NCBI GenBank assembly: GCA_020433455.1
Contig: JAGRCP010000080.1
Coordinates: forward strand, 1 to 64,000
DNA from: Caldilineaceae bacterium
GTDB lineage: Bacteria; Chloroflexota; Anaerolineae; Caldilineales; Caldilineaceae
Length of the DNA: 64,000 nucleotides
Direction of reading: 5' to 3'
Below the pieces are notes generated by a model. That model was given only the letters and a program-made list of their open reading frames with translations. It was not told where the DNA came from and did not search any database. Position numbers and translations under genes: made by a program. Positions 22,832 to 39,770 of the stretch are shown one piece after another; position 1 is the first letter of the stretch; every line of letters starts with the position of its first letter.

Positions 22832-24796
22832 CTACTCCAAATCAATCCACTCAATAACCTGAGGCGCGCCGGCAGCTTCGCTGGTGGCCACGTCGTAGAC
22901 GACGATTTCCAGCCCATAGCGACCGGGCGGCAGATCAGCAGGCAGTTCCAGCACTTTGGGATCGGGCAGGGGCGTAGCGAAGAAAAGCGTCGTGGGAATG
23001 ATGCCCCGGGCGGGCGGTCCGTCGGCTTGCGCCAGGCGGCCGCCCGCTTCATTGATCAGACGCAGGGACGTGTTGTATTGGCGATCAATCGCGCCGGCGC
23101 CTTGCCAGATGAGGGTCACGTGGAAGGCCCCGCCTGCGCGCGGGGGGGAATACGCCCAGCCGGCGAGGGCCAGCGGGCCCAGGACCAGGGGCGTGGCCAA
23201 CTCTCGCTCCTCAGTCATCTCCGGCGCGGAGCGGGCGCCCGCCGCATAGAGGGCCAAAACGCCGCGCTCGCTGTATGCGATGTCGAACTGCTGAATAAGT
23301 ACGCGCAGAAACGCTGCATCGTAACGGGTGGCCAGGCGCAAGCTGTCGCTCACGAACCAGACGCCGGGCGCTTCCTCCAGCAGCCCAGTGAGTTCCTCTG
23401 CGGATTGGAGCAGGGGCGCGCCGGACCAACGGTCAATGAGTTCGCCGTCCCGCTGAATGACGTACTCCTCATAGCCGTGCTGGATAGCGTAGTAGTCGCA
23501 TTCGCCCAGCACCTGAGCGCAAGCGGGCGGCTGGGGCGACAGCACAACCTCGCCCGGTTGGCGCACATCGGCCACATAGGCAAATACCCGGTCATAGCCC
23601 TCTACCTGCTGCGCAAGCGTGCTGCGCGCGGGCTGCCAAAACAGAGCCAGCAGCACGAGCGCGGTGACGCCGGTGACCGCCCAGCGCATATTCTCCTGCG
23701 TAAGAAGCCGATCGATCAGCCAAACCATGCCCGCCGCGCCGCAGAGCAGCCAGAAGGGCTGAACGAAGAAAAGGTAACGCGCGTCGCGCCACGTAGTCCC
23801 CACCAGCGTGAGCATCACCAGAAAAACAAAACCGAACTGGAGGGCGAAAAAGAGGGTCGCCTGATGAAAGCGCGGCAACTTCTCCAGCGAACGCATTTGT
23901 CCCCACAGGACAAGCGCGACCCCCAGCGCCAGGAGCCCGGCAATCGTCCACGGCAGGCGTGCGGGCGCGATGAGCAACGGCGCATAGGTTTGCCATGCTC
24001 CCTGCACATCAAAAACCAGGCCCATGTAGGGGCGAGTGGACTGGATGGTCTCAAAGTAGCCGGGCTGGCCCAGCTTTTCCATGAGGAAGCGCGCGGCTAT
24101 TCCTCCCAGACAGATGAGGTTGACCGCCATGACCCCGGGACGCAGCAAATAGCGCGGTCCGCGCCACAGCAGCATGGCCAGCAGCAGCGCGGGGTAGAGC
24201 AGGATTATCTGCTCCTGGGTGAAGAGCGCAAGCCAGAAGAGCAGGGCGAAAAGAGCAAGACGCCGACGTTCCCGGGCCGGTTCCAGCGTGGTCAGGGCTG
24301 CAAAGAGAGCCCACGCGGTGAGGAGCGCCAGCAACTGGAACAGGGCGTAAAAGCGCGCCCGCCCGCTCCACACGATGGCTTCGGGCAGGAGCGTCAATCC
24401 TGCCGCGGCCAGGATGCCGACGCGTGCGTTCCACGCCTGCTTGCCGCACCAGAAGATAACGCCGATGGTTGCCAGCCCCAGGAGCAGGCTGGGCAAACGG
24501 CCTACGGTGTACGTGTCACCGAAGAGCGCAAGAAAACCGGCTTCCAGGTAGGAAGCCAGGATGCCCCGGGTGTAAAGTACGCCGCTGGGCATTCTGGGCA
24601 CGCCGATTTTCTGGATGCGCTCCGCCGCCCACAGGGTGGTGAATTCGTCTACGTAGAGGCTGATGGTGCGCAGGTAGCGCCAACGCAGTTGCGCGCCCAG
24701 CAACAGGAGCGCAGCCAATCCCGTCCAGACGACGAGGGGGAGACGATCACTCCGGCCGGCGCGCGAAGGGGATTCAGGTGAGTGGATTGGGTGCAT
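22832..24796 (-). CDS. GT-C family membrane glycosyltransferase (GT39/ArnT-like) with C-terminal soluble part
   Basis: About 654 residues. The first half has many transmembrane helices. The catalytic acidic pair of the GT-C fold lies in the first external loop (SLYVDEFTTLW). Such enzymes move sugars from polyprenyl-phosphate carriers onto proteins or lipids on the outer face of the membrane. The last ~130 residues are beta-rich and soluble (LVLGPLALAGWAYSPPRAG, then LPPGRYGLEIVVYDV), echoing the C-termini of the next two genes. The ATG at 24796 overlaps the upstream stop as TGATG, so the genes are coupled. The acceptor and sugar are unknown. Confidence 0.82.
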   Translation of the reverse strand: MHPIHSPESPSRAGRSDRLPLVVWTGLAALLLLGAQLRWRYLRTISLYVDEFTTLWAAERIQKIGVPRMPSGVLYTRGILASYLEAGFLALFGDTYTVGRLPSLLLGLATIGVIFWCGKQAWNARVGILAAAGLTLLPEAIVWSGRARFYALFQLLALLTAWALFAALTTLEPARERRRLALFALLFWLALFTQEQIILLYPALLLAMLLWRGPRYLLRPGVMAVNLICLGGIAARFLMEKLGQPGYFETIQSTRPYMGLVFDVQGAWQTYAPLLIAPARLPWTIAGLLALGVALVLWGQMRSLEKLPRFHQATLFFALQFGFVFLVMLTLVGTTWRDARYLFFVQPFWLLCGAAGMVWLIDRLLTQENMRWAVTGVTALVLLALFWQPARSTLAQQVEGYDRVFAYVADVRQPGEVVLSPQPPACAQVLGECDYYAIQHGYEEYVIQRDGELIDRWSGAPLLQSAEELTGLLEEAPGVWFVSDSLRLATRYDAAFLRVLIQQFDIAYSERGVLALYAAGARSAPEMTEERELATPLVLGPLALAGWAYSPPRAGGAFHVTLIWQGAGAIDRQYNTSLRLINEAGGRLAQADGPPARGIIPTTLFFATPLPDPKVLELPADLPPGRYGLEIVVYDVATSEAAGAPQVIEWIDLE

Positions 24797-27342
24797 CAAG
24801 GCGCCTCGAACGTTCCAATGCGGATGGAATCCCCCGCGACTTCACCGTCGTGAAGAAGGGGCAATCGTCCCTCCTCCTGGGTGTAGAGGCCCACGCGCAC
24901 CTCATAGCGGCCTGGCTGCAAATCAGCCGGCAGTTCCACTTCCAGATTATCGACAATGCGTTGGCCTGACTGCCAGAGAGAGGTAGCCGCGAAGCCGTTT
25001 CGGGGCGGACGATCCAGCCCGGCCACCTGCTCGCCGTCCGGACCCATGACGTGGGCGAAGACGGTGTAGTCTGTCGCAGTGGGTGCAAGACTTTCCCAAT
25101 AAAGGTGGAGGTCCAGGGTCAAGCCGGCGGCTGCGGTCGCGGGCAGATCGGCACCAGCCAGCCGAATCACGTTGCCGAAATTGTCAATGGTTTCCGGCGG
25201 CGATACGGGAACGGGCCAGGGGAGAGAGCCGACGCGAACGAGCGCGACCGGCTGCTCCTGCGCGTCAACGGGCGCCCCGGTCGCGCTGTTCGCAATCGAC
25301 AGGCGCTCCAGCGTGACCGGATCGTAGACGGCCAGGGTAATCTGGTAGAGTCCCGGCGGCGTATCGCCGGGAACGACGATGATATAACCGTCAGGGCGAA
25401 TCTCGCGAATGGGCCAGTTGCTGGTGGGCGCGCCCCAGGGCCAGCCGTCGGTCTTCCAGATTTCCTGTCCGTTTTCGCCCACCATCCGCACCTGCACATT
25501 GTAATCCAGCTCCATCTCGGCCAGACTTTGCAGGTAAAAAGTCGCGTGGAAGGCGTCGCCCGGCGTCACGGTCAGCGGATCGAATTCGTAGGCGGCCAGG
25601 CGAATGCGCTCGCCGAAGTCAGCGGTCCGGGTCTTCCCGATCTCCACAAAATCGGGCACAGGGCCGGCACGCAGATCGTAGATGCGCGCCAGCTCTATCC
25701 CGCCGGAGCGAACCGTATGGACCGGCTCCCGGGCAAAAAAATAGTCAATGGCCTGGGGCGACGGCTCTTCACGCTGCCACTGATTGACGTAGAGGACCGC
25801 GTAATCCGTATCCAGCCAAAAGAGAGGCGAATCAGAGGAAAGCGCCACTTCCTGACCGTCGAAAAAGTAGGAAAAGGGCCCGTCATGATACCAGGCCGCG
25901 ACGCGCAGGTTTTCGGCGTCAGGCTGCTGGTTGAGGTACTCGGCAGCCTGATCCAACCCTTCGCCCCAGCCGACAAAGAGGGTGCGGGGCGCGGTCCAAC
26001 TGCCGCCGACCAGGGGGTTGTAGTAGGTGAAATAATAGGGGTAGTGAACGAAGCCCAGAACCCCGTGCAGCAGCGCCGCGCCGCCGATAATCCACGCGGG
26101 CACGAGCGGATGCTGAGTCCAGGCCCGGGCCGTCATGTGGCGGCGCAGGCGGAAGGCCAGGGCCCAGTAGCCCAGCACGGCCACCATGTCCAGCGCCAGC
26201 AGCGCAGGCAAGAGGTAGCGGTCAAATTTCTTGGCCCCCACGCTCATGCCTGCGGTAAAGAGAAGCGCAAAGAGGAGCAGGCCCAGGGTCGCCTGCTGTA
26301 CCCGGCTTATGGTGAAGGGTAATTGTCGTCGCCATGCGGCAATTGCCGCGGCCGCCAGCCCCAGCCAGGTGAGCGGCGTGCTGCGGAACAAATAGGCCAC
26401 CGGATAAAACAAGATGCCGGGGTCTTCCACCGGCCGCCCCATAAAAAAGTTAACGTTGGTGTGACGTTCCACATACTCGCCCATCTCGCCCGCCATGCGC
26501 AGAAGCGTCCCCAGGGGATCGACCCACATGGCCGGCCAAAGAACGACAAAGACCGCGGTGGCAACTCCCCCCCAAAGTGCCAGCCATCCAAGCCAGCGGA
26601 GGGCGGCATGCGCCGGTTTCGTACCGGCCAGGCGGGCAGCCCGATACTCCCGCCGCCACTCCACGGCCATGAGCAGCGCGCCGGCAGGAGCGAGAAAAAT
26701 GGCGGGTGTTTTGGTCAGCCAGGCCAGCCCCATCACCGCACCCGAAGCAATAAGCAGATGGAGGCGCCGACCGGCGTAGAGCCAGGCCAGAAAGAGGAGA
26801 AGGGCAAAAAAGGTCAGGCTGGAGACCAGGCCGTCGGGATGGAGTTGGCGGGAAAGGGCCACATAGAAGGGCGTCCACGCCAAATAGAGCGTGCCGCAAA
26901 TGGCAACAATTTCTCCGAAGAGGCGGCGTAAGGGCAGAAAGGAGAGTGCCAGGGTCAGCGAGATGGCCAGGACGATCCACCAGCGGCCTGCGGCCAACAG
27001 GTCCAGGGGATCATGCGCGCCTGTTTCGGCCAGCCACGCTTCCAGATATTCCCGATCCCAGGCGAAGTAGCCCGGCGCGTCAGCCGCATAATCGGGATAT
27101 TCGCGCAGGAGTCCCAGAGATCCCGCCCACATAACGGTGACGCCGGGATGCTCGCGCTGGAAAGTTTCGGACCATTCCTGCCGGCTGAGCGCGTAGGTGA
27201 AGTTGGCTGAGCGGGCCAACCACTTGCGCTCGTCGATGGTGACAAACTCGCTCAGTCCCATGACCCGGGGCAGCCAAGCCGCCAGAAAGAGAAAAATCAG
27301 GATTACGCCTGTGCGTGTGGAGCGATTCGTGACGAGCTTCAT
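24796..27342 (-). CDS. Large GT-C family membrane glycosyltransferase with two C-terminal beta-rich domains
   Basis: About 848 residues from the ATG at 27342; an upstream TTG at 27384 is possible but less likely. The acidic motif in loop 1 is FVTIDERKWL. About ten to twelve hydrophobic segments follow to roughly residue 440, then an extracytoplasmic region. The final 300 residues hold two related segments, each with a PGD..H.TFYLQSL or LHLYWESL strand and each closing with a PPGLYQ/QPGRYEVRVGLY strand. It is coupled to the downstream GT-C gene and separated by 50 bases from the upstream one. Confidence 0.82.
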   Translation of the reverse strand: MKLVTNRSTRTGVILIFLFLAAWLPRVMGLSEFVTIDERKWLARSANFTYALSRQEWSETFQREHPGVTVMWAGSLGLLREYPDYAADAPGYFAWDREYLEAWLAETGAHDPLDLLAAGRWWIVLAISLTLALSFLPLRRLFGEIVAICGTLYLAWTPFYVALSRQLHPDGLVSSLTFFALLLFLAWLYAGRRLHLLIASGAVMGLAWLTKTPAIFLAPAGALLMAVEWRREYRAARLAGTKPAHAALRWLGWLALWGGVATAVFVVLWPAMWVDPLGTLLRMAGEMGEYVERHTNVNFFMGRPVEDPGILFYPVAYLFRSTPLTWLGLAAAAIAAWRRQLPFTISRVQQATLGLLLFALLFTAGMSVGAKKFDRYLLPALLALDMVAVLGYWALAFRLRRHMTARAWTQHPLVPAWIIGGAALLHGVLGFVHYPYYFTYYNPLVGGSWTAPRTLFVGWGEGLDQAAEYLNQQPDAENLRVAAWYHDGPFSYFFDGQEVALSSDSPLFWLDTDYAVLYVNQWQREEPSPQAIDYFFAREPVHTVRSGGIELARIYDLRAGPVPDFVEIGKTRTADFGERIRLAAYEFDPLTVTPGDAFHATFYLQSLAEMELDYNVQVRMVGENGQEIWKTDGWPWGAPTSNWPIREIRPDGYIIVVPGDTPPGLYQITLAVYDPVTLERLSIANSATGAPVDAQEQPVALVRVGSLPWPVPVSPPETIDNFGNVIRLAGADLPATAAAGLTLDLHLYWESLAPTATDYTVFAHVMGPDGEQVAGLDRPPRNGFAATSLWQSGQRIVDNLEVELPADLQPGRYEVRVGLYTQEEGRLPLLHDGEVAGDSIRIGTFEAP

Positions 27343-27391
27343 GGCCGACACGGGATGCGGTTGAGGATAGGCAATCCGGCACAAAAGCGCA

Positions 27392-30001
27392 TCATTCTTC
27401 CCCCACCCGAATGTCGGTTAGCTGCACCTGGGCGCCGACCGTATTGCCGCTTTCGTCCAGCACGTTCAAACGCTCCAGCGTCTCTTCGATGTAAAGGCCG
27501 GTGTAAAGGGGGTAGAGCCCGTCAGGCGCATCATCAGCGACAGGAATTTCGTACCGATCGGTGATGAGTTCGCCGGGATCCCAACGCCACGTTTCCCGGC
27601 TTTCGCAGACGGGGTAGCCGTCCAATTGTGCAATCATGCCGCTGTCGCCGTAGTAGGCTTGGTTAAAAACTTTGTAGGAGGCGTCTACCGGCTTTTGCGC
27701 GCGCCAGAAAAGGGTCAGGGTGATGGTATCGCCCTGACGCAGCGGTTGGGGATAGTCGATATTGTAGCCTTCCAGCCAGATGAGATCGTCAAAGTTTGTG
27801 TGAATCGGATTCTCAATCAGCTGATTGACGGCGGGATAAGTGAGGGGGAAATCCGGTCCGGCCAATTCATCAAAGCGCGCGGTAAAGTCGGCCAAATCGT
27901 AGCGGGGAACGTCATCGGCAGGCTCCTGCGTGGGGAATTCGCTGCTTTCGCCCGTACGCCGGTAGATGACCATCTGGTCGGTATCATTGATCTCCACGAT
28001 GCCCCACTTGCTGAAGCCGTCGCGCAGGTAATGCTCCATGGCCAGCTGATCGCCGTTGCTCCACGGCTCCAGATTGTCGATCTCGAAGAACCAGTCCGCG
28101 GTGCGGCCGCAGCGGATTTGCCCCCGCGTGTACCAGGAAGGAACCCAGGCTTCCTTTTCGTTGGTCTCGTAATCTCCCGCAATCACGCCCTCTTCGTAGA
28201 GCACGCCGGCGACCTTCCAGCCGTTGGCCAGGGGAAACCCGAAGAGGGCTTTGTCGTCCGGCTCGTCGTATGCGACCCAGTAGCCCTGAGGGTGCCAGGC
28301 GTCCCACGTGCGCAGCACTTCCGGCGTGTTGGAGACGAAGTACCAGTAAGCATATACGCCGAAGAGCGCGATGAGCGCGGTTGCCGCGATGGCTCCGCCG
28401 ATGCGCGCGGCGGGCGCGCCGATTTGCTCCCGCAGCCCGCGCCAAATCCGCACCAGCGCCCAGGCGGCCAGCAAGACCCAGGGAGTGAAGAAAGTATAGA
28501 CGTGGGTGCGGGGCTTCTCCACAAAGAAAAGGGCCAGCAGCATCCCAAAACCGAACCAAAGCCAGAGCATACGCTCGCCCGGCTTGAGCCTGGGCGTCAA
28601 TACGGCCAGGACGATGAAGAAAGCGAAGGGCAGCACAATCAGATCGGTTTCGCCAAAGCGCAACCATGTCGGATTGATGAAGGTGAGGATCATCACGCCG
28701 GTTGCTGCCAGACTCAACCCCGCGGCCCAGCGTCGTCCCCAGCCCTGCCGGTAGGCGAAGTAGAGCGCGGCCAGGGTCGTAGCAATCAACAGGAGCACGT
28801 AATAGGTGGTGCTGTAAACGGTGGTGCGCAGAAAGAAGTCGGCCAGGTTGTTATAGGGAAAGCTGCCGCCCACGCGCCGGTCGGTGAGATAGGTATAGGT
28901 CGCGCTGAAGTGAGGATGGCGCACGAAGGGAATGTAAAAAAGCGCCAGCATCACGCCGCCGGTCAGGATAGGCGGAATGAGATCGCCGAGAAATTCCCGC
29001 CAGCGGGTCGGCCGCTGCCAAAAAAGGACCAGGAGCAGAAAGAGCGCAGGAATGACCGCCAGCGCGGCTTCGTAGTGGGAAAGCAGACCCGTGGCCAGGA
29101 TGACGGCCGCCAAGGTCAGGTAGCGGCCCACGGCCACGGCGTTAACGGTCAGGCGGTAAAAAATCAGCACCGCCAGCGCAGAGCAGAGGAAAACGATGCT
29201 CTGATACTGCACAATATGAGAATAACCGATGAAATAACCGTCTACGGCCAGGAACATAGCCGCGGTCCAGCCGACCAGCGGACCGGCCAGACGCCATCCC
29301 AGCAGGAAGAGGATGAAAAGCGCGACCACGTTGGCAACGGCAAAGGGCCAGCGTGCGGTCGTCTCGGTCAGATGACCGGTGAGGGAATAAGCGACGGCGG
29401 GGACGACAATTTCAGTCGGTCCCTTTTTATGGATAAGGAGTACGTCATCCACGCCCTGAATGATGGCTGCGGCGCGCAGCGTAGCCCGGGCCTCATCGCC
29501 CTGATACTCCGCGTAGCCGAGATTGGTGAAGCGCAGAAAGCCCGCCACCAAAAGCAAGGTCAGCGCGCCGATCCAAATCCAGGTTCGGGTCGCCCTGTCC
29601 GGATCCAATTCGGGGAAAAGCGCAGGGGTAGGGCGGGGATAAAGGGGCCGACGGCGGGCCTGGACCGCGATGAGTGCGAGAAGCAGAACAATGATGCCGT
29701 CAAAGGCCAGAAGCGTCTGCCACCAAAGAAGCGGGCCCGGCAGGAAGCTGAGCAAGGTCATGCCCATGACCATGACGCCGTAGCCCGCGCCCACCGCATA
29801 AAGCAGACGCTCCCAGCGCGTCGGCGCAGCCCCGCTTTGGCCAACCAGGGCGTCTACCAACAAAAAGCCGGGTAAAAAGCCCGTCAGGAAATAAACCGCG
29901 ATTGCCTGTACCAGATGGGGCAGAGGCAGCAACAGCAGCCCATTCAGCAACGCTGCAATCAAGAGTGAGATGAGTAAAAAAGAACGAGTTTTGAGATACA
30001 T
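27392..30001 (-). CDS. Large GT-C family membrane glycosyltransferase with C-terminal beta-rich domain
   Basis: An 869-residue protein with many membrane helices. The external acidic motif is AEYQGDEARATLRAA, the GT39/PMT style. The N-terminal ~120 residues form four extra hydrophobic segments before that motif, longer than in the two neighbours. The C-terminal 270 residues are soluble and end with a domain starting IDYPQPLRQGDTITLTLFWRAQKP and closing DGLYPLYTGLYIEETLERL. This resembles the ends of the other two GT-C proteins. It is first of the three in transcription order, about 100 bases after the GT2 gene. Confidence 0.82.
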   Translation of the reverse strand: MYLKTRSFLLISLLIAALLNGLLLLPLPHLVQAIAVYFLTGFLPGFLLVDALVGQSGAAPTRWERLLYAVGAGYGVMVMGMTLLSFLPGPLLWWQTLLAFDGIIVLLLALIAVQARRRPLYPRPTPALFPELDPDRATRTWIWIGALTLLLVAGFLRFTNLGYAEYQGDEARATLRAAAIIQGVDDVLLIHKKGPTEIVVPAVAYSLTGHLTETTARWPFAVANVVALFILFLLGWRLAGPLVGWTAAMFLAVDGYFIGYSHIVQYQSIVFLCSALAVLIFYRLTVNAVAVGRYLTLAAVILATGLLSHYEAALAVIPALFLLLVLFWQRPTRWREFLGDLIPPILTGGVMLALFYIPFVRHPHFSATYTYLTDRRVGGSFPYNNLADFFLRTTVYSTTYYVLLLIATTLAALYFAYRQGWGRRWAAGLSLAATGVMILTFINPTWLRFGETDLIVLPFAFFIVLAVLTPRLKPGERMLWLWFGFGMLLALFFVEKPRTHVYTFFTPWVLLAAWALVRIWRGLREQIGAPAARIGGAIAATALIALFGVYAYWYFVSNTPEVLRTWDAWHPQGYWVAYDEPDDKALFGFPLANGWKVAGVLYEEGVIAGDYETNEKEAWVPSWYTRGQIRCGRTADWFFEIDNLEPWSNGDQLAMEHYLRDGFSKWGIVEINDTDQMVIYRRTGESSEFPTQEPADDVPRYDLADFTARFDELAGPDFPLTYPAVNQLIENPIHTNFDDLIWLEGYNIDYPQPLRQGDTITLTLFWRAQKPVDASYKVFNQAYYGDSGMIAQLDGYPVCESRETWRWDPGELITDRYEIPVADDAPDGLYPLYTGLYIEETLERLNVLDESGNTVGAQVQLTDIRVGEE

Positions 30002-30100
30002 AAGCGTAAGAAGGAATGCGGACCGCGTCCGGTCGCTATGGCCGGACGTTCAGAACATTTTGGCGCGTGCGCTGCCGCGAAACCGATTGTGCGTCACGCA

Positions 30101-31123
30101 TTATGCAGAAGTATTTTCACCGTTTACCACTTCGCGCACGTAGTAAATCGGCTTGTTTTGGCTTTCGAAATAGGTCCGGGTAATCATCTCGCCCAACAGG
30201 CCCATGGTGATGAGCTGGACGCCGATGACGACCAGAAGCACGGCCAGGAGCAGCAATGGCCGCGAGCCGATGTCCTGGTGATTGAAGAGCTTGAGGCCGG
30301 TGAGGTAGAGGCCGACGAGTACGCCCGCGGCCGACGAGATCAGCCCCAGAGAGCCGAAAACCTGAATAGGACGCGTGGCATACGAACCGAGGAACCAGAC
30401 GGTGATCAGGTCCAGGACGACGCGTACGGTGCGGCCGATGCCGTATTTGGATGTCCCGTACTGACGCGCATGGTGATCAACCGCCACTTCGGTCACAGAG
30501 CCGCCCACCTGGCTGGCCAGAGCAGGGATAAAGCGGTGCAGCTCGCCGTAAAGGTGAACATGCTGCAACACGTCCCGGCGATACGCCTTGAGGGAGCAGC
30601 CGTAATCGTGAAGGCGCACGTCGGTGACGTTGGAAATCATGCGATTGGCGATCATGGAGGGCAACTTGCGGTCCAGAAAGCGATCCTGACGGTCTTTGCG
30701 CCAACCGCTGACGATATCATAGCCCTCGTTCACTTTCTCCATGAGCAGCGGAATATCTTTGGGATCGTTCTGGAGGTCGGCATCCATGGTGATAATCACG
30801 TCGCCGCTTGCATGATCGAAGCCGGCGGAAAATGCGGCGGTCTGGCCAAAGTTACGCCGCAGCTTGATGATGCGATAACGCGGGTCACGCGTGCCGATCT
30901 CCGCCAGCAGGGCAAAGCTGCCGTCGCTGGAGCCGTCATCCACAATGATGATCTCAAAGGTTGCGCCATACTCCTCCAGCGCGGCGGTGAGCCGTTCGTA
31001 AAGCGCGGGAATGCTCTCTTCTTCGTTATAGAGGGGTATGACCACCGAAATGCGGGGCGGGATCGATTTGTGAATACCGCCGGCCGGAATGGTCGTACGG
31101 GACAGTGCCGCTAAACTCTGCAT
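30101..31123 (-). CDS. Polyprenyl-phosphate glycosyltransferase (GT2, DPM1/GtrB/ArnC-like)
   Basis: A 340-residue protein. The GT2 catalytic domain starts ISVVIPLYNEEESIPALYERL. The metal-binding motif is MDADLQNDPKDIP and the acceptor region SGWRKDRQDR. Two C-terminal transmembrane helices follow (VLVGLYLTGL, LLLLAVLLVVIGVQLI). Enzymes of this type attach a sugar to undecaprenyl phosphate on the inner face, supplying lipid-linked sugar for GT-C transferases. That fits the three GT-C genes directly downstream on the same strand. The start at 31123 is chosen from the family N-terminus; its ribosome site is weak. Confidence 0.9.
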   Translation of the reverse strand: MQSLAALSRTTIPAGGIHKSIPPRISVVIPLYNEEESIPALYERLTAALEEYGATFEIIIVDDGSSDGSFALLAEIGTRDPRYRIIKLRRNFGQTAAFSAGFDHASGDVIITMDADLQNDPKDIPLLMEKVNEGYDIVSGWRKDRQDRFLDRKLPSMIANRMISNVTDVRLHDYGCSLKAYRRDVLQHVHLYGELHRFIPALASQVGGSVTEVAVDHHARQYGTSKYGIGRTVRVVLDLITVWFLGSYATRPIQVFGSLGLISSAAGVLVGLYLTGLKLFNHQDIGSRPLLLLAVLLVVIGVQLITMGLLGEMITRTYFESQNKPIYYVREVVNGENTSA

Positions 31124-31314
31124 GATGCTTGGCTCGTTTCGTTCGTCATGATGTCGCCCAAATTTCGGGCGCATACCGCTTGTCCGACCCGCTATCTAAC
31201 CACACAAGCGCGTTTCAGGAAAAAAACAAGAGGCAGCGGATGAAACGGATAGGTTCAATTACGTCCCATGTGATGCCGGAAACAAGTGATGTGCGACACG
31301 CAAATTGTGCGCAA

Positions 31315-32808
31315 TCATTCCAGCGTCACCATGTCGCCGACTTTTAGCTCGGCATAGCCGGAGCCGAAGCCGGTTAGCATGGGGACGGCGGCGGAACGGG
31401 CGGCGGCAGCCAGTGGGTCCACGGGCGTACCGTAGGCGCCGATCACGCCGTTCACCAGTGGCAGGAGTAACGACCAACCGCTGTCCGGCTCGGCAATGCC
31501 GACGATGGTCCCCGGCTCAAGTTCCGCGTCCAGGCCGATCACGGATCGGAAAGGTCCGCTTGCCTGTCCGCGCCCGGCAGGCGTGCCCGCGACGACGGAG
31601 AAGGCTTCGGCATCACCCGCCAACAGATCGCCGGGCATCAGCGCCAGATGACCTGCATAAACCTCCCGTCGTTTGGCGGCTGTGGCGCGGATTTCCTCCA
31701 TGGCGCTGATGTTCCACTCGCCGGTCATCATCTGCTTGATCTCTTCCAGCTCATAGAAAAAGATCTCGGTGGAATCGACGAGACGCCTGTCGCTGATAGC
31801 CTCCCTGGCCGCGGCCAGGGCCCAGCGTCGGGTCCCGGCTAAAATGTAGGCCACGGCATTGAGGGCGCGGCTTTGCAGCGTCAATGCGGACTCCATACTT
31901 GTCAGCAAAGCCGCGGCTTCCTTCCTTCCTTTGCCGGCGGCGGTCAGCAGTACCTGCTCGTCTATGGAGGAAGGCGGAGATGCCGCATCCGGGGCTGTTG
32001 TCGCATAGTGTGAGCGTAAGCGCCGGAGCAAATCGGGCTCCTCATCCCAGCGCGGATTTTGCAGTTCCCCCTCGCCCGCGGCCCGATGGCCAAATTCCGC
32101 CAGCCAGGAGGACAAATCTGCCCCGCTCTGCGCCGACAATTCGGCGATCATGCGGGTTTCCACCAGATCGCCTGTGGGGAGGGCCTGGTTGATCCGCGCC
32201 AAATTTTCGGGAAGTGCGATCTGATCCCTGGTTAGAACCAGGAGGCGATTATACGCTTGCTCCAGGCTGCGCCGCGCGGCCAAAAACGCCGCAAAGCTCT
32301 GGACGCCGATGCGTTCGATCTCCTCCATCACCTGCAGGATGTCGGCTTGGGTCCACTTTAAGTCGCCGGTTTTGGCATACCAATTCCTGACCCGAACCAG
32401 GATGTCCGGATAGGCGGCGTTCAGCTCGGTGATGCGGTTTTCCATACGCTTCTGTGCGCGACCGGCGCGCAGGCCGCCCAGAAAGCCGCTCTTCTCCCAC
32501 GTGCAGACGGGCGTTCGACGTCCGTTGATGACAAATTGGGCGGGGGGGACGTCCGCCTGTTCAGCTTCCAGGCGCGCAGCAAGAGTAAGGTTGAAGTAAG
32601 GGCGTCCCGCATGCATGCGGACAACCTGGGAACGCGGCCTGGGATCAAAACCCAGCGCGGCGTAGTGTTCATACCACCCGCGGTTGATTAGCTCCATCAG
32701 CACGCTGCTGCTAAAGGGCGTCAGCGCATCCGGAGCCAGAGGTTGGAGCGTTGTCAGGCTCCAGATTTCCTGTCCCACCTTGTCTGTTTTGGTCTGATAT
32801 TCAAACAC
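31315..32808 (-). CDS. PEP-synthase/rifampin-phosphotransferase-like protein lacking the ATP-grasp domain and the catalytic His
   Basis: A 497-residue protein starting at GTG 32808. The N-terminal part has LTPFSSSVLMELI and VVRMHAGRPYFNLT. The middle has EFGHRAAGEGELQNPRW and an EIFFYELEEIKQ helix. The C-terminal 85 residues form a PEP-utilising swivel domain (AGTPAGRGQASGPFRSV, EPDSGWSLLLPLVNGVIG). In active enzymes the swivel has a His in a GG.xSHAAIVARE motif. Here the segment reads YGTPVDPLAAAARSAAVP, with no His. The N-terminal ATP-grasp domain is also absent. It is probably a non-catalytic relative or a subunit of a split enzyme. Its function is unknown. Confidence 0.7.
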   Translation of the reverse strand: MFEYQTKTDKVGQEIWSLTTLQPLAPDALTPFSSSVLMELINRGWYEHYAALGFDPRPRSQVVRMHAGRPYFNLTLAARLEAEQADVPPAQFVINGRRTPVCTWEKSGFLGGLRAGRAQKRMENRITELNAAYPDILVRVRNWYAKTGDLKWTQADILQVMEEIERIGVQSFAAFLAARRSLEQAYNRLLVLTRDQIALPENLARINQALPTGDLVETRMIAELSAQSGADLSSWLAEFGHRAAGEGELQNPRWDEEPDLLRRLRSHYATTAPDAASPPSSIDEQVLLTAAGKGRKEAAALLTSMESALTLQSRALNAVAYILAGTRRWALAAAREAISDRRLVDSTEIFFYELEEIKQMMTGEWNISAMEEIRATAAKRREVYAGHLALMPGDLLAGDAEAFSVVAGTPAGRGQASGPFRSVIGLDAELEPGTIVGIAEPDSGWSLLLPLVNGVIGAYGTPVDPLAAAARSAAVPMLTGFGSGYAELKVGDMVTLE

Positions 32809-33142: not shown

Positions 33143-34255
33143 TCAGGATGTATAGGACAACACCGCCTGCACAATTTCTTCGTTGTGCTGGTCAATAAGC
33201 CGATAAGCCTGAACAGCTTCATTAAACGGTACGGCGGTCGTTAGCAGCGAGGATAACTGAAGCTCACCAAAAGCGGCTAGCACATTTTCCGTGCGTCGCA
33301 CGATGTCATGTGTGGCGCTTAGTTCGGGTGCAATTCCCGCAACTTGGGAACATTTAATCGAGATGCGGTTATGATGAAATTCATCGCTTAGCTTTAATGC
33401 CTGACCGGTTCCACCATACCAGGACATTGCCACAACGGATGTATTGTAAGCCGCTGTACGAATTGCTTCCTGGAGTGCTGTATATGAACCGCTGACCTCG
33501 ATTACAACATCCGCTCCTCTCCTATTGGTCATGTTACGCACCTGGAGCGCGATATCACCTTCGGCGGGATCCAGAGCAATGTCTGCACCAAGCGAGAGAG
33601 CCAACCGGCGCCGCGAGGGAAGCGTATCAACAACGATTATCTGCTTTGGCCCCACACGGCGGACGAATTGCGTAACGAGCAGACCGACAATCCCCTGGCC
33701 GAAAATGACGACGACGTCATCCAACCGAATGTTTGCCTCCAGAACGCCATTATATGCCGTATTGAGGTTAGCAAAGAGCACGCCTTCGGCTGGATTGGTG
33801 AGTTCAGGCAGTCGAATGACCGTTTCGGCGGCCGCGACATAATAGTCCTGATGAGGTTCATAGGCGAAGACCAGATCGCCTTTCCGAACCCCCGTTACCT
33901 GCGGGCCGCATTCTATGACACGCCCAACATTAGCATATCCATAAGCAAGCGGGTACCCCCACGTCGTATCGGAAGGTTTCCAATAGCCGCGTGCCGGTGG
34001 GTGCGATACCGCTTCTGTCGGCAGGGGCAGAAACAGACGCAAATCCGGATCAAAGTACTTGGTTAATTGAGGCGCTTTTCCGCGGTAGACGTTCATTTCA
34101 GTCCCGTGACTGATACCGGAGTATAGCGTTTGCACGCCAATATCCCGGTCCCCAGGCCGGGGTAACGTTTGCTCGATATAGGTCAATTCCTTGGGTCCGG
34201 CCAGGGCAAGAATTTGGGCTTGTTCAGGCAGGTTTGCCTCAGTAATCATGATCAT
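33143..34255 (-). CDS. MDR-family (zinc-type alcohol dehydrogenase-like) oxidoreductase
   Basis: About 370 residues, last gene of the second sugar module. The catalytic-domain motif that usually reads CGICGTD is replaced by YSGISHGTEMNVYRG, as in MDR subgroups without the standard zinc cysteine. The Rossmann segment is VVIFGQGIVGLLVTQFV followed by VVDTLPSRR, consistent with NAD(H) binding. The start at 34255 follows AAGGA; a second ATG two codons later is also possible. Context suggests oxidation of a sugar, polyol or derivative imported by the adjacent transporter. Confidence 0.85.
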   Translation of the reverse strand: MIMITEANLPEQAQILALAGPKELTYIEQTLPRPGDRDIGVQTLYSGISHGTEMNVYRGKAPQLTKYFDPDLRLFLPLPTEAVSHPPARGYWKPSDTTWGYPLAYGYANVGRVIECGPQVTGVRKGDLVFAYEPHQDYYVAAAETVIRLPELTNPAEGVLFANLNTAYNGVLEANIRLDDVVVIFGQGIVGLLVTQFVRRVGPKQIIVVDTLPSRRRLALSLGADIALDPAEGDIALQVRNMTNRRGADVVIEVSGSYTALQEAIRTAAYNTSVVAMSWYGGTGQALKLSDEFHHNRISIKCSQVAGIAPELSATHDIVRRTENVLAAFGELQLSSLLTTAVPFNEAVQAYRLIDQHNEEIVQAVLSYTS

Positions 34256-34272
34256 AAAGTCCTTGCTGATCG

Positions 34273-35103
34273 CTACCCTTTGACGCTGCCGGAGGTCAAG
34301 CCACCGAGGAGGTAGCGTTGGAAATAGATAAAAAGAATGGTCGGCGGAATTGAAATCAGTACGCCGCCCGCCGTCAGCATGCCCCAATCAATGGTGTAGC
34401 GCCCCAATGCCGCCTGGAGCGCCAGCGGCAGCGTCTTTGATTCGGTTGAGGTCATTAACGAAAGCGCAAACAGGTATTCGCCCCAGGCTAACATGAAGGT
34501 GAACGCGGCCACCGCGACCGTGGCCGGAGCCATTAGGGGGATGATGATACGAGTCAGCACCTGCCAGTCCGTAGCGCCGTCGATCATGGCCGCCTCATCA
34601 AGGGCCGGCGGAATTTCGTCCATGTACCCTTTTAGCATCCAGACAGCCACCGGCAACCCTAACAGCAGATAGGTAATCATCAAACCAAGAATATTGTCGG
34701 TTAGATTCATCCTGCGCAAGATGACGATAAGCGGAACCACCATGACAATTCCGGGTAACATCTGCATCGCCAAAATTGTTGTCGCGAAGACGCCCTGTAG
34801 ACGGTAGCGGAATCTTGATAGACTGAAGGCGGCCAGCAGAGCAATGCTGGTTACAACTACTGCTGTCGCTAGCGCGACAACCAGGCTGTTGCGAAGAGCG
34901 TCCTGAAAACCTACAGCATTCCACATCCTGGTAAAATTGCTGAGCGTTACGCTACGCGGCAACAAATCAAACGGCGCGCCTACGATGTCCGTAGTCGGCT
35001 TAAGCGAAGCCGAATAGAGCCAGATGATCGGAAACAGGTAAACCAATACCAGACCAATGGTTGCGGCGTCAAAAGCAAAATTTTTAAATCGCTTGTTGGT
35101 CAT
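34273..35103 (-). CDS. Carbohydrate ABC transporter permease (MalG-type), second module
   Basis: A 276-residue six-helix permease with the EAA loop DEAAMIDGATDWQVL followed by IIIPLMAP and a C-terminus ending GLTSGSVKG. It forms the channel with the MalF-type protein encoded 12 bases upstream. No ATPase gene lies in the module. Confidence 0.92.
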   Translation of the reverse strand: MTNKRFKNFAFDAATIGLVLVYLFPIIWLYSASLKPTTDIVGAPFDLLPRSVTLSNFTRMWNAVGFQDALRNSLVVALATAVVVTSIALLAAFSLSRFRYRLQGVFATTILAMQMLPGIVMVVPLIVILRRMNLTDNILGLMITYLLLGLPVAVWMLKGYMDEIPPALDEAAMIDGATDWQVLTRIIIPLMAPATVAVAAFTFMLAWGEYLFALSLMTSTESKTLPLALQAALGRYTIDWGMLTAGGVLISIPPTILFIYFQRYLLGGLTSGSVKG

Positions 35104-35115
35104 GAGTTTGTTCCG

Positions 35116-35991
35116 TTAGGCGGTCTGACGCTTCCGTAACAGCCCCAGATAAACGCTGGAAAAGGCGAGCAGAAGCAAAAGCATTGCAACGCCGATTGTG
35201 GCGGCGTAGCTCAGTTCATTGCGTTCAAAAAATTGCCGAAAGAGATATACCCCTAACAACAAAGTTGCGTCGGTAGGCCCGCCTTTGGTCATGATCCATA
35301 CCAGATCGAAGCTGTAGAAGGCGAGAACCCCTAAAATCAGAGACATGACGACGCTGACTGGAATCAGCAATGGAAACGTTATGAAACGGAATTGATTCCA
35401 CAGGTTAGCGCCATCAACCGCGGCAGCTTCGTACAGCTCTTCCGGGATTGATTTTAATGTGGCAAGCAGCGCAATCGTCATGAATGGGGCGCCCTTCCAG
35501 GCGCTGACTGCTGTGACAGCAAGCAGCGCAAGTGAAGGATCGACCAAAAGCGACCGTTCGCCTACAAGTCCGAACTGATACAGCACCTGATGCAACGCCC
35601 CATATTGGCCGTCCAGAAGCCAGCGCCACGTATAGGCAACAACGATGGATGGCGCAACCCAGGGCAGGAGGATGAGACCGCTGAGGATGGCATTAATCCG
35701 GCTACGACGGTTGAGAAGCAGAGCAAATAACAGACCAATCACAAATTCTAACGCCACCGTACCAACGGTCCAGATAATCGTACGCAGAAAGCTCTCCCAG
35801 AGCACCGTATCGGCAAGAAGTCTCTTATAGCCATCCAACCCATACCAGACAGGCGTCAAGCTGCGCAGCAGGTACCAATCGGTGAAGCTTAGGTAGATTT
35901 GGTAAAGAATCGGGTATAAGCCCACCAGCAGAAACACGATGAGCGCCGGCGCAAAGAACAGATATCCGGCTGCCGAGCGTCTAGACCCCAT
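35116..35991 (-). CDS. Sugar ABC transporter permease (MalF-type), second module
   Basis: A 291-residue permease. Its EAA loop reads YEAAAVDGANLWNQF followed by ITFPLLIPV. A strong AAGGAGG ribosome site lies directly before the start, and a stable hairpin separates it from the binding-protein gene. This layout lets the binding protein be made in excess over the membrane subunits. Confidence 0.92.
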   Translation of the reverse strand: MGSRRSAAGYLFFAPALIVFLLVGLYPILYQIYLSFTDWYLLRSLTPVWYGLDGYKRLLADTVLWESFLRTIIWTVGTVALEFVIGLLFALLLNRRSRINAILSGLILLPWVAPSIVVAYTWRWLLDGQYGALHQVLYQFGLVGERSLLVDPSLALLAVTAVSAWKGAPFMTIALLATLKSIPEELYEAAAVDGANLWNQFRFITFPLLIPVSVVMSLILGVLAFYSFDLVWIMTKGGPTDATLLLGVYLFRQFFERNELSYAATIGVAMLLLLLAFSSVYLGLLRKRQTA

Positions 35992-36010
35992 GTTACCTCC
36001 TTGAAAAGTG

Positions 36011-36048
36011 AAGAGGCGTCGGATGAGTTGACTCTTCCGACGCCTCTT
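36011..36048 (-). terminator. Intercistronic hairpin between binding-protein and permease genes (attenuator or mRNA stabiliser)
   Basis: A perfect 13-bp stem, AAGAGGCGTCGGA paired with TCCGACGCCTCTT, with a 12-base loop. It lies ten bases past the binding-protein stop and just before the permease ribosome site. Only a weak U-rich tract (CTTTTC) follows on the minus strand. Partial termination or 3'-end protection, as known between malE and malF, is the likely role. Confidence 0.7.
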
Positions 36049-36057
36049 TTATATCCG

Positions 36058-37401
36058 CTATCGGCTCAGCGTATCGTTAATGCGTTCGCAAAGCTGCGTA
36101 ACGGCATCATCGACACTTTGACCAAGCATGACGCTCTGCACGGCGGTCTGTACGGCATCGACTTCAAGGGAAGCCATTTCGGGGATTTCCGGATCGGGAT
36201 ATTGGTAAGGTTGCGCATATTGGAGGCCCTCCAGGAAGAAGTTGAACTCGCTGCGCAGCGGCTCTTCATAGGCTTCCAGCCACTGATCGGCAATGGACTG
36301 GCGGCCTGGAGGCAGATTGGCCGGCGCAGCAATATCAGGCAAGCCCTGCTCCGGGTCCGTAGCAAACTTAATCCACTCCCATGCGGCGTCAGGATTGTCG
36401 GAGCCCTTCCACAGCACCAGTGGCCAGCCGCCCAGGAAGCCATAGCGTCCGGCCGGACCTTCCGGGATCAAGGCAACCTTCAGATCAGGCAACCATTCAG
36501 GATTGGCCTCTGCCAGCGTTCCATAGATCCACGGCCCGTCAATATACATAGCCAGCTTGCCTTCGGACAGCATTTGTACCAGCTGCTCCCGGCTGTAGTT
36601 GGGCGTATCCGGCGGCGTTACCCCATCTACCAAATAGAGATCCGTATAGTATTGCAGGGCTTCACGGAACTCAGGGGTGTCAAATCCACACATCCCATCA
36701 TCGTTCAGGAAGCGAGCGCCATAGCCAAGATAGACGTTCGTAAAAACCTGCAACGTAGGATAATCTATTGCGCCGGGAACGCCGATCCCATATACATCAT
36801 CCGTCGTCAGCTGAATAGCGACATCCCGCAAGTCGGCCCAGGTATTCGGCGGTTCTTCGATACCGGCCTCAGCAAAGAGATCGGCCCGGTACCACAAGGC
36901 TCTGGTCTCCACGTTCATGGGAGATCCCCACCATTCGTCTTCAAGCAGGTAGTAATAGCGATCGCCAGGCCAGAAATCCGCGGTAATATCTTCCCCCGCC
37001 TCCTCAGACCACTGCTCAAAGTAGGGCGAAAGGGATTCCAGGGCGCCGATTGCCTGATATTGGGCTACAACATTGTTACCTAACATCGACACATCCGGCA
37101 GTGCGCCGGTCGTCAGTGCAGTTGTCAGCTTCTGCTGTTGTTCAGCCCACGGCACGATTTCCATCTGAACATCAATGTCGGGATGGAGCGTTTCAAACTC
37201 CTGGATGGCATTTTCATAGGCCGCGATGATTGGCGGGTCGGTGAAAAACTGCCAGAAGACGACTGATGCAGGCACCCCCTCATCCGTAGTTTCTGCACCG
37301 GGTTGCTCTGCCGGCGCTTGAGCTGGAACAGAAGCGCAGCTACTCAATGCGAAAGCAAGCAATACGAGGACAAACAAAGAACTGAACAGACGAAATTTCA
37401 T
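36058..37401 (-). CDS. Extracellular solute-binding lipoprotein, second sugar module
   Basis: A 447-residue lipoprotein with signal sequence MKFRLFSSLFVLVLLAFAL and lipobox LSSC. It follows the family 1 solute-binding fold (IQEFETLHPDIDVQMEIVPW near the N-terminus; WEWIKFATDPEQG near the C-terminus). The start at 37401 is preceded by GGAGAAG at a good distance. The mature part is preceded by a short Pro/Ala/Glu linker. It is the first gene after an internal terminator and probably has its own promoter in the 324-bp gap upstream. Confidence 0.92.
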   Translation of the reverse strand: MKFRLFSSLFVLVLLAFALSSCASVPAQAPAEQPGAETTDEGVPASVVFWQFFTDPPIIAAYENAIQEFETLHPDIDVQMEIVPWAEQQQKLTTALTTGALPDVSMLGNNVVAQYQAIGALESLSPYFEQWSEEAGEDITADFWPGDRYYYLLEDEWWGSPMNVETRALWYRADLFAEAGIEEPPNTWADLRDVAIQLTTDDVYGIGVPGAIDYPTLQVFTNVYLGYGARFLNDDGMCGFDTPEFREALQYYTDLYLVDGVTPPDTPNYSREQLVQMLSEGKLAMYIDGPWIYGTLAEANPEWLPDLKVALIPEGPAGRYGFLGGWPLVLWKGSDNPDAAWEWIKFATDPEQGLPDIAAPANLPPGRQSIADQWLEAYEEPLRSEFNFFLEGLQYAQPYQYPDPEIPEMASLEVDAVQTAVQSVMLGQSVDDAVTQLCERINDTLSR

Positions 37402-37725
37402 TGATCTTCTCCAATTACCTACATAGGACATAAAGGTGTAAACGATGGTTGGGGGAGGCAGACGTGATTGGGTGCGGCAATCTCCTTTCTTCACTCACAC
37501 AAACTCAGTAATTGCCCGTTTTCAAGTTAGCAGTACTTTGTTTCGGGCGCCCCGGACTCCAATCCGGCAATAATGCCAAGCCGGCGCCTGGCGTACCCAG
37601 GCAACGATCCGCAATCGCTATCTTATTGGCGGGCAATTACGTTAAACGGAAAAAGCAACAGGTTAAGTCATAAAAATTGAGCTTGCTTCGCAAGCTCTTC
37701 AGGCCAACCGCCGGAGGCTTGAGCG
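37402..37725. other. 324-bp intergenic region upstream of the second binding-protein gene
   Basis: The upstream end holds the terminator of the isomerase gene (37673-37697). The rest is expected to carry the binding-protein promoter, but I cannot pick a clear -35/-10 pair. A CCGGACTCCAATCCGG inverted repeat lies near 37552-37567. A possible half-conserved LacI-type site with a central CG (AATTACGTTAAA) lies near 37635-37646. Confidence 0.35.
37673..37697 (-). terminator. Rho-independent terminator after the isomerase gene
   Basis: An 8-bp perfect stem GAGCTTGC/GCAAGCTC with a three-base loop, followed on the minus strand by AATTTTTA. It separates the regulator/isomerase transcript from the transporter transcript. 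Confidence 0.75.
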
Positions 37726-38547
37726 TTATGCTCCCGCCCACTCGCTGCGGAGAAAGTGAACGGTTTCCGGTAATGCGCTGTCAGGCGCCCCCTCAATTAC
37801 AGGACCTTGCGGACTCCAGCATTCGATTGAGATGAAGTTTTGATAACCTATCGCTTTCAGCGCGGCGAACCCGGGCCGAAAATTCAGGCAGCCGCGTCCA
37901 GGCTGTAGCCGGTTGTTGTCGGCGACATGGACCATTCCAAGCCGCTCTCCTGCAGCCAGCAAGGCAGCGCTTATATCCGCCTCTTCGATGTTCATGTGAA
38001 AAAAGTCCGCCAACGCCTGGACCCGCGGATGACCGATGGCTTGGGCCAGATCAACCGCCTGTCCTATGCGGTTCAGAAAATGCGCCTCGTAGCGATTAAG
38101 GGGTTCCAGCAATAACGCCGCCGTACCCGACGGAAGTGTGGCGGCCCATTCCGTAAGCGCAGCGATCGCAAAATCGTACGTTAACGCGTAGCTATCCTTC
38201 CAAGGGGAAAGATCCGGGAACTGATACGGCGGCCTTACCGGTACAGATACCACTCCCGACGCTCCCAGCTCATCTGCCTGCGACAGCAATTCCTTCAGCA
38301 CCTGCAGGCGCCTCGCCCTTTCATTTGAATCCGGAACAAGCGGATCATGCATGGGGTGCGTGCAAAGATTGGAAACCGGCAAACCGCTGGACTTCATCGC
38401 CCGTTGCACTTCTGCCATATGCATTGTCAAGTCGAATGTAGGGTCTATGGCAATCTCAACACCGTCAAAACCATAACGGGCCGCATTATCGAACTGCTCC
38501 GCCAAGTCTCGGCCGGGCAGCAATAAAGTTTGGATAGCAAGCCGCAT
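37726..38547 (-). CDS. Sugar phosphate isomerase/epimerase-like TIM-barrel protein
   Basis: About 273 residues of the xylose-isomerase-like/AP endonuclease 2 superfamily. Barrel strands carry FDGVEIAIDPTFD near the N-terminus, LLLEPLNRYEAHFLN (metal-site Glu and Asn), FHMNIEEADI, LGMVHVADNNRLQPGRG (His/Asp) and FISIECWSPQ (Glu). This matches sugar epimerases such as tagatose 3-epimerase or 2-keto-sugar isomerases. Two start ATGs are adjacent; the second has better spacing to AGGAG. It follows the LacI gene and probably acts on the imported sugar. Confidence 0.86.
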   Translation of the reverse strand: MRLAIQTLLLPGRDLAEQFDNAARYGFDGVEIAIDPTFDLTMHMAEVQRAMKSSGLPVSNLCTHPMHDPLVPDSNERARRLQVLKELLSQADELGASGVVSVPVRPPYQFPDLSPWKDSYALTYDFAIAALTEWAATLPSGTAALLLEPLNRYEAHFLNRIGQAVDLAQAIGHPRVQALADFFHMNIEEADISAALLAAGERLGMVHVADNNRLQPGRGCLNFRPGFAALKAIGYQNFISIECWSPQGPVIEGAPDSALPETVHFLRSEWAGA

Positions 38548-38693
38548 CATATGCTCCTTTGTTATTGGAACTGCATTTCCGGTGAACCACGAGAGAAATT
38601 CTCAATATGCGGTTTTTCCAGCGGGAAAACTGTTGGATTTCCGTCGTAGCATTCACGCCGAACTATAGTGGCGGGCGTGCTGTAACCATGCCC

Positions 38694-39770
38694 CTACCGG
38701 TCAGGCGCCGGGCCGGTCGAGGAGCGAACGGACAGGTATGTCGTGAGCTGCTCGCGTCGTTGGACTGCCGGCTCCTCCGATTCCGGAGCGTCCTGCAATT
38801 CAATTAAAATCTGCGCCGCCCGGCCGCCTATTTCCAACATGGGCTGCTGGACTGTCGTCAGCGATGGCGTCAAAAAGGGGGCGTAGGTTCCATCAAACCC
38901 TACCACCGACATATCATCAGGCACCCCGAGACCGTGACGGTACAGCGTTTGGAGAGCGCCGGCCGCGAGAATGTCACAAGTGGCGAAAATAGCAGTCGGC
39001 GGATTCGCAACCCCGAGGAACTCCTCGGTATAGAGCGCACCGTCTCCGGCAAAGCCTCCATCTTCCATCGAATAGTATTCGCCCAGAGCAACCAATTGCT
39101 TATCGACAGGAAGGCCATATTTGTTGAGTACATCCACATAGCCGGCCAGACGCTCTTCCTCAATCAGACGATAACTTGTCGGCTCTCCTCGCTTCTGGTA
39201 ATAGTGCGGATCGCCGCCGATGTATGCAATGCGCTCATGCCCTAGCTCAATGAGATGTTCCATCGCCGCTGAGGAACCGGCATAGTTGTCAATCAGAACA
39301 GCATGGGTCTCAACATGCGTGATTCGTTCGACCTGGACGACTGGGACGCCATTGCTCACGGCAAGCTGCACATTCTCCGGATCAACCGCCGTTGTAAATA
39401 TGATGCCGTCAACACGTCTGTCAAGCAGCGTTTCGACACCCCGTCGTTCCTCGGCCGGATCGCCTTCCACGTTGTACAACAGCACATTGTAGCCATAGCG
39501 ATGGGCCTCCTTTTCCGCCCCCAAAGCGACGCGGGCAAAGAAAGGGTTGGGTGAAATACAGTGCAGCAAATGTCCAAGCGTCTTGGTCTGCTGCTGACGA
39601 AGCGCCCGCGCCAAAGTATTGACGCGATAGCCGGTCTCTTCGATGGCGGCCAGGACCTGATCCTTGGTTTCCTCTGCTACATATCCTCGTTGTTGAAGTA
39701 CGCGCGTGACTGTAGCAGTGGAGAGTCCGGCGTGTTTGGCTACATCTTTAATCGTAACGTGTTGACGCAT
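38694..39770 (-). CDS. LacI-family transcriptional regulator
   Basis: A 358-residue repressor. The N-terminal DNA-binding region is VTIKDVAKHAGLSTATVTRVL, with hinge helix region NTLARALRQQQTKTLG. The periplasmic-binding-protein-like effector domain follows (about 62-345; VDGIIFTTAV, HERIAYIGGD, DMSVVGFDGTYAP). A near-consensus promoter and a perfect 36-bp palindrome sit 95-157 bases upstream, so autoregulation is very likely. The effector is probably the sugar handled by this module. Confidence 0.94.
   Translation of the reverse strand: MRQHVTIKDVAKHAGLSTATVTRVLQQRGYVAEETKDQVLAAIEETGYRVNTLARALRQQQTKTLGHLLHCISPNPFFARVALGAEKEAHRYGYNVLLYNVEGDPAEERRGVETLLDRRVDGIIFTTAVDPENVQLAVSNGVPVVQVERITHVETHAVLIDNYAGSSAAMEHLIELGHERIAYIGGDPHYYQKRGEPTSYRLIEEERLAGYVDVLNKYGLPVDKQLVALGEYYSMEDGGFAGDGALYTEEFLGVANPPTAIFATCDILAAGALQTLYRHGLGVPDDMSVVGFDGTYAPFLTPSLTTVQQPMLEIGGRAAQILIELQDAPESEEPAVQRREQLTTYLSVRSSTGPAPDR

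Follow-up and report, generated by a model that had tools for sequence, protein, structure and literature searches.

Rifampin phosphotransferase-like proteins of Chloroflexota without an ATP-grasp domain and, in most members, without the phospho-histidine

PMC4844700 presents the RPH-like proteins as small-molecule kinases that form a large group, most of it still unexplored. According to that paper, RPH consists of an ATP-grasp domain (residues 1-314), a RIF-binding domain (327-754) and a swivel domain (767-865); Leu478 and Phe479 touch rifampin, Arg666, Glu667 and Lys670 are part of the network around the transferred phosphate, alanine at Arg666 or Glu667 abolishes rifampin inactivation, and even clade Q, a distant one, retains the block 9 Arg/Glu and Lys. 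A related arrangement is presented in PMC12167813, where HpeH, CreH and PpsA, each the large subunit of a two-component aryl dikinase, act together with an ATP-grasp protein and keep their swivel histidine, following the pattern T/SxxGGxxxH. A literature search, made at the level of search results beyond PMC4844700 and PMC12167813, returned no description of a family lacking both this histidine and the ATP-grasp domain.

We analysed one such gene in a 64,000-nucleotide stretch of Caldilineaceae DNA, referred to as the window, together with its relatives (L denotes loci or alignment rows, G genomes and f taxonomic families; f1 is Caldilineaceae and G000 the window's own genome). By description, the window protein is like HpeH, as summarized in PMC12167813, in being a stand-alone RIF-binding-like domain plus swivel to which no ATP-grasp domain is fused, and unlike HpeH, CreH and PpsA in the loss of the swivel histidine and in that no ATP-grasp partner was found in its genome. 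The features discussed below are:

31315..32808, minus strand: protein gene, 497 codons open, GTG start; RIF-binding-like and swivel-like domains, without ATP-grasp
32704..32721, minus strand: TPFS motif, residues 30-35, where the substrate domain begins; P31 common to full-length relatives
32314..32355, minus strand: new family motif WxQAxxLQxMEEIE, residues 152-165; W152, Q154, L158, Q159, M161 and E162 in 33/33 family rows
32047..32091, minus strand: GHRAAGEGELQNPRW, an ancestral feature, residues 240-254, common to full-length relatives
31861..31875, minus strand: QSRAL, residues 312-316, which in a HMMER alignment with RPH-Lm chain 5hv2_A stands where RPH has Arg666/Glu667/Lys670; none of the three is kept
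31714..31752, minus strand: new family motif ELEEIKQMMTGEW (EExKQxxTGEW), residues 353-365, nearly invariant
31318..31626, minus strand: swivel (PEP-utilisers mobile) domain without phospho-His, residues 395-497 (PF00391 match below cut-off; RPH-Lm alignment)
31396..31431, minus strand: GTPVDPLAAAAR, residues 460-471, replacing GGxxSHGAIVAR, with Pro465 at the His position (alignment)

Domain architecture and fold of the window protein

An earlier note, made from the sequence alone, had described the protein as PEP-synthase-like and devoid of an ATP-grasp domain. The second statement was confirmed: a Pfam search with an E limit of 1 gave no ATP-grasp match (PF01326 or other), and the RPH-Lm chains 5fbu and 5hv1 align with the protein from residue 326. 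The first statement holds for the swivel, residues 406-497 of which superimpose on the PPDK swivel at 2.1 Å with Z of 4.2-4.5 (5lu4, 2fm4) and which also gave profile matches of this kind, but not for the protein as a whole, whose fold and sequence are RPH-like and which possesses neither the PEP synthase histidine nor any other PEP-synthase domain (Pfam, E up to 1). This includes the pyruvate-binding C-terminal domain; the swivel forms the end of the protein. The mobile-domain profile search proposed in the note did find PF00391, at residues 431-496, with scores just below the Pfam cut-off of 23.1 bits (22.6 bits in the genome search and 18.1 bits in the protein search).

The second Pfam match, DUF1978, was below its cut-off, and the best NCBIfam matches were rifamycin phosphotransferase and PEP synthase models, far under their cut-offs. 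The profiles of the prodigiosin ligases PigC (NF052631) and RedH (NF052632) matched 11/33 and 13/33 family rows, respectively, at E up to 1e-5. Their scores for the window protein (20.4 and 11.6 bits) were far below the curated 1300 and 1350 bits, and these models are about 880 positions long.

An AlphaFold2 model built from 22 aligned sequences reached a pLDDT of 88.7 and a pTM of 0.91. The only strong PDB match was RPH-Lm, which accounted for all six Foldseek hits with E up to 0.001 (best E 1.1e-16). With VIA, model residues 5-497 were aligned to 5fbt (Z 25.7, 433 residues, 4.6 Å, chain range 200-857), and similar scores were obtained for 5fbu and 5hv1 (Z 25.6 and 25.4, chain residues 326-857); the identity in the structural alignments with RPH-Lm was 14-17%. 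RPH-Lm (PDB 5FBT/5FBU/5HV1) and the window protein thus agree in how the RIF-binding and swivel domains are ordered and folded (Z 25.4-25.7), both folds being present in the model and the alignment running to residue 497 (chain 857). Based on the model and the profiles, the architecture is that of a RIF-binding domain followed by a swivel, with the ATP-grasp domain missing. Residues 406-497 alone matched the swivel domains of enzyme I, pyruvate kinase and PPDK at 1.6-2.4 Å with modest Z (3.6-6.1). A pore-forming toxin and other helical chains also appeared in VIA-align with Z of 4-5.5, and were set aside because such values are common among helical arrangements according to the tool's note.

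The window copy differs from its near relatives in start codon and length. The aligned start codon is TTG in all 11 Caldilineaceae relatives compared (L005-L015) versus GTG in the window; weak starts conserved in this way could point to expression that is low and controlled. GAGG occurs among the bases 5' of the family-gene start in most of L005-L015. The 497-residue window protein compares with 540-558 residues in four near relatives, against which it is missing 30 residues after 226-228 and the final 8 residues.

Phosphotransfer residues and new motifs across the family

A peptide-pattern search of genome contigs yielded 66 matching stretches and 21 confirmed relatives, all from Chloroflexota. 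A profile run against 396 genomes from the window's class gave at least 150 bits in 44 of them, with open frames of at most 665 aa, and the first hit under this set was an 878-aa protein with 106.5 bits. Three genomes scored lower but contained the family motifs (G052, G105 and G030, the last only in pieces). When 400 genomes were scanned across the phylum, only the window's own genome (513 bits) and the same-class G014 (431 bits) exceeded 166 bits, the next score being 165.5 bits for an 875-aa frame. Within these class and phylum scans, no member of the family turned up outside the Chloroflexota class to which the window belongs. Of the 125 viral pattern hits, none was confirmed as a copy, and a role as a defence system was discarded, as PADLOC matched 0/33 rows.

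The tree comprised 46 rows, namely 33 of the family and 13 of His-bearing full-length or truncated full-length relatives, and the two sets were separated at a branch with support 98/96. The family rows are 22-45% identical to the window protein, with a mean column identity of 33%. The window gene is therefore a member of a family and not a lone oddity.

The claim that the catalytic-His segment of the swivel is replaced proved correct for the window: Pro465 within the loop GTPVDPLAAAAR occupies the position that is His in 13/13 full-length relatives, and that corresponds to His825 of RPH-Lm. As to whether this loss is conserved among homologues, the residue is replaced in 22/33 family rows (12 Pro, 4 Trp, 2 Phe, 2 Ala, 1 Gln and 1 Tyr), the whole swivel is lost in four (L061, L064, L066 and L089, with an earlier stop codon and no downstream remnant found), and the His is kept in five, all from f15 (L023, L083, L084, L086 and L060). 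The remaining two rows could not be judged and were not counted as losses (L088, where the contig ends inside the gene, and L082, which ends early). Conservation of the loss is therefore partial, and the homologues that keep the His are a minority. In Caldilineaceae, Asp-Pro replaces Ser-His in 15/15 rows that have the stretch, which L015, L054, L071 and L072 lack. The Gly-Gly pair preceding the His is present in 13/13 full-length rows versus 0/33 family rows. If the His was ancestral and never regained, about six losses are needed on the tree, several of the forks concerned being weakly supported. PF00391 was detected at E up to 0.001 in 22/33 family rows (the window lies outside these 22), and an ATP-grasp domain in 0/33 (Pfam scan).

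The residues that hold the phosphate in RPH are changed as well. In the profile alignment to chain 5hv2_A, for which residue numbers were converted by hand with a 12-residue offset, Arg666, Glu667 and Lys670 correspond to Gln312, Ser313 and Leu316 of the window protein. Arg is found at the first site in 13/13 full-length rows versus 4/33 family rows; the second is Asp or Glu in 13/13 full-length rows, whereas the pair of Arg and Asp/Glu occurs in only 2/33 family rows (L075 and L076); the third is Lys in 6/13 full-length rows (otherwise 4 Arg, 2 Gln and 1 Asn) versus 0/33. No family row combines the His with the Arg and Asp/Glu pair. The earlier prediction that the protein would be incapable of phosphotransfer is thus supported and strengthened, as the phosphate-holding Arg, Glu and Lys are gone in addition to the His.

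Other residues are shared with the full-length relatives. The family features noted earlier in the middle of the protein, FGHRAAGEGELQNPRW, are present, and G240 (29/33 family rows), R253 (32/33) and P31 (30/33, with two gaps and one Leu) are found in 13/13 full-length rows. G240, R253, E356 and R380 are thus common to the family and to full-length relatives of the RPH-Lm kind.

Sixteen columns are invariant in 33/33 family rows: W143, W152, Q154, L158, Q159, M161, E162, W329, E355, E356, K358, T362, G363, E364, W365 and R380. Of these, E356 and R380 do not vary among the 13 full-length rows either; the other 14 do. Most of these columns fall into two motifs that are new relative to RPH-Lm, WxQAxxLQxMEE, which is not conserved in the full-length rows, and EExKQxxTGEW. 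The invariant columns persist in the rows without a swivel. A metal site around His241 was considered and rejected; H241 is present in only 28/33 rows, and because it is not universal no classical metal site is evident.

For the core, dN/dS was 0.16-0.26 in the six measurable of seven close pairs, one pair being saturated. For the swivel, it was 0.08-0.18 in three pairs from one Caldilineaceae genus (g4; L008 takes part in two of the three) and 0.15-0.45 in four f15 pairs. In the three g4 pairs, dN/dS was lower in the His-less swivel than in the core. All 13 measurable values were below 0.5, so the pairs tested, to which the window's own copy does not belong, are under purifying selection. The best match was free of internal stops in 41/44 genomes of the class scan with at least 150 bits, the other three being G000, G056 and G020.

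Gene neighbourhood and the search for an ATP-grasp partner

Neighbours were counted in the 49 loci where the family gene had been called (L018, missed by the gene caller, was dropped; L071 and L072 are from one genome). In 13/49 loci the gene immediately upstream, in the same orientation, encodes a TetR regulator, with TetR_N confirmed by Pfam in four of these and the rest assigned by BLAST cluster. This pairing was found in f32 (4/4), f24 (2/2), f27 (1/1) and f15 (6/15), and was absent from f1 (0/19, window included), f21 (0/5), f17 (0/2) and f31 (0/1). In L061 and L067 the two frames overlap by 4 bp. The TetR-bearing families stand on both sides of the first fork of the family (support 94/86 and 80/51), and for this reason the pair may be ancestral, although the weaker fork leaves this uncertain.

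In 10/19 Caldilineaceae loci, the gene directly upstream is divergent and carries an Lrp/AsnC ligand-binding domain; this gene also occurs upstream with one gene in between in four more. The domain scored 25.7 bits in L011 and 31.7 bits in the window copy (39952-40734), at a cut-off of 25. In the window (33143-40734, AsnC-like gene included), a sugar uptake and catabolism cassette stands between the AsnC-like gene and the family gene as if inserted, with a dehydrogenase, permease and permease-like genes, a binding protein, a TIM-barrel isomerase and a LacI regulator. On the other side, at 22832-31174, an ArnC/DPM-like GT2 gene and three consecutive PMT_2 genes follow the family gene on the same strand.

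The same-strand downstream genes of the 49 loci include a DUF5719-like secreted protein (14 loci; in this cluster L019 is above the Pfam cut-off and L023 has no DUF5719 match), GT2 (8), cobS (5) and cobT (2). The eight loci with GT2 are the window, five other f1 loci and both f17 loci (L075 and L076). Within the 19 Caldilineaceae loci, the next same-strand gene is cobS in five, and in two more after a 99-aa gene, cobT in two and GT2 in six; the gap between the family gene and cobS is 3-13 bp in four loci. Most of these neighbours were identified by BLAST cluster, with Pfam checks for L008, L013, L006 and the window. The 99-aa protein is encoded at 7638-7937 in L008 and at 6876-7175 in L011; Pfam gave nothing for the L008 copy at E up to 0.01. 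A role in cobalamin metabolism, hinted at by the adjoining cobS or cobT in some Caldilineaceae, was rejected on two grounds: in 11 Caldilineaceae loci no match to an Rfam family attained the gathering score, and the window's own genome, 99% complete, gave no CobS match, although cobS is often next to the family gene in its relatives. As the neighbours in Caldilineaceae are cobS, cobT or GT2, no single pathway is indicated.

The earlier note had also considered that the protein might be half of a split system, with a separate ATP-grasp gene elsewhere. In the window's own genome, all PPDK_N matches fell into one 827-aa gene with its own mobile domain, and no free ATP-grasp gene was found, so this suggestion was not supported. 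An ATP-grasp profile, whose 11 positive-control hits were the sequences used to build it, matched none of the 483 genes, those of the family among them, that were called in 50 family loci. In 5/20 family-bearing genomes (G117, G336, G097, G199 and G050) there is a short PPDK_N frame, 305-418 aa long, but in each of them its contig also carries, at a distance of about 1-6 kb, a different gene of 507-603 aa with a strong PF00391 match. This neighbour has the canonical GGxxxH loop in 4/4 cases read (all but G097). Neither of the two family motifs was found in the five stretches around the short ATP-grasp genes, the G097 stretch being one without its PF00391 gene. The family members of these five genomes pass the PF00391 cut-off, with 27.8-35.7 bits.

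Possible functions of the family

Since the parts that pass on phosphate are lost, the part that binds the small molecule is kept and new fixed motifs have been gained, a job different from that of RPH is probable. We favour, with a probability of about one half, an RPH relative dead in phosphotransfer that works as a small-molecule-binding protein, i.e. a sensor, a carrier or a sequestering protein. This agrees with the suggestion of a binding or regulatory relative in the earlier note, as a predicted role. The protein would have retained the RIF-binding type of substrate domain and the swivel while losing the ATP-grasp domain, the phospho-His and the phosphate-binding Arg, Glu and Lys. A putative ligand would sit in the cleft equivalent to the rifampin site of RPH, now lined by the conserved Trp, Gln and Glu motifs; the MEE motif maps to Leu478/Phe479 of RPH by an extrapolation of about five residues along one helix (window residue 169 equals chain residue 484). 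In the window's lineage the His-less swivel may serve as a lid, and the gene product may be linked to the signal of the TetR regulator. The swivel is dispensable, four rows ending before it. Counting against the binding function are the absence of TetR beside the window gene and in all f1, f21 and f17 loci, the lack of a single pathway among the Caldilineaceae neighbours, the five rows that retain the His and the shortened window copy.

We also consider it possible, with some reserve, that the family represents a lineage-specific new class, in which the small-molecule domain of a dikinase became free of ATP and phospho-His and acquired two new motifs, as a ligand-responsive or catalytic module with ancestral TetR co-transcription, the swivel being exapted in one branch (the fixed Asp-Pro loop) and deleted in another. 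The combination of selection in the tested pairs and new fixed motifs with the lack of phosphotransfer elements suggests that the substrate domain can exist alone. The label 'phosphoenolpyruvate synthase', if assigned by similarity, would mislead for such genes. The TetR pair, which four taxonomic families have but the window's does not, offers a direct handle toward a ligand.

The main and serious rival to the binding protein, which we rate as rather unlikely, is a new enzyme in which the old substrate domain catalyses a non-phosphotransfer reaction at an active site of its own, formed by the two new motifs. The conserved Glu, Lys, Trp and Gln could equally form a catalytic site, with Glu162/163/165, Glu355/356, Lys358, Glu364 and the tryptophans as candidate residues. 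The invariance of charged and aromatic residues in 33 rows at a mean column identity of only 33% argues for this possibility, as does the survival of the core motifs when the swivel is lost, and pairing with a TetR gene is also common for enzyme genes. On the other hand, no curated enzyme family stands out beyond those of RPH-like, PEP-synthase-like and prodigiosin-ligase-like proteins, and with His241 in 28/33 rows no classical metal site accompanies the motifs.

It is improbable that the protein is a protein-protein regulatory subunit, for example of an adjoining enzyme of polyprenyl-sugar or cobamide assembly. The cobS, cobT or GT2 genes that come next on the same strand in Caldilineaceae, and the GT2 genes in both f17 loci, point in this direction, but the own genome is without a CobS match and the partners differ between lineages. 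A decaying, functionless dikinase remnant is very improbable and, for the family as a whole, largely refuted: the repeated loss of the His and the swivel, the shortened window copy, the disrupted C-termini of L015 and L054/L082 and the fragmented L077 would suit decay, whereas the dN/dS values, the invariant new motifs, the confidently predicted fold and the stop-free best matches speak against it.

The least probable explanation, largely refuted for the window's own genome, is that the protein forms one half of a two-component dikinase of the HpeH/PpsA kind and is charged by an ATP-grasp protein whose gene lies elsewhere; HpeH was modelled in PMC12167813 with the same architecture and a separate ATP-grasp protein, HpeI, and some family-bearing genomes do have a short ATP-grasp frame, but substitution of the HpeH His, which is Pro here, abolished activity according to the same paper, the RPH phosphate residues are lost, the own genome has no free PPDK_N gene, and each short ATP-grasp gene has another mobile-domain gene close by.

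As a separate observation, these other mobile-domain genes and their short ATP-grasp neighbours at L109, L110, L112 and L113, together with G097:C84, are candidate HpeHI-like two-component dikinases, the His loop being canonical in the four genomes read.
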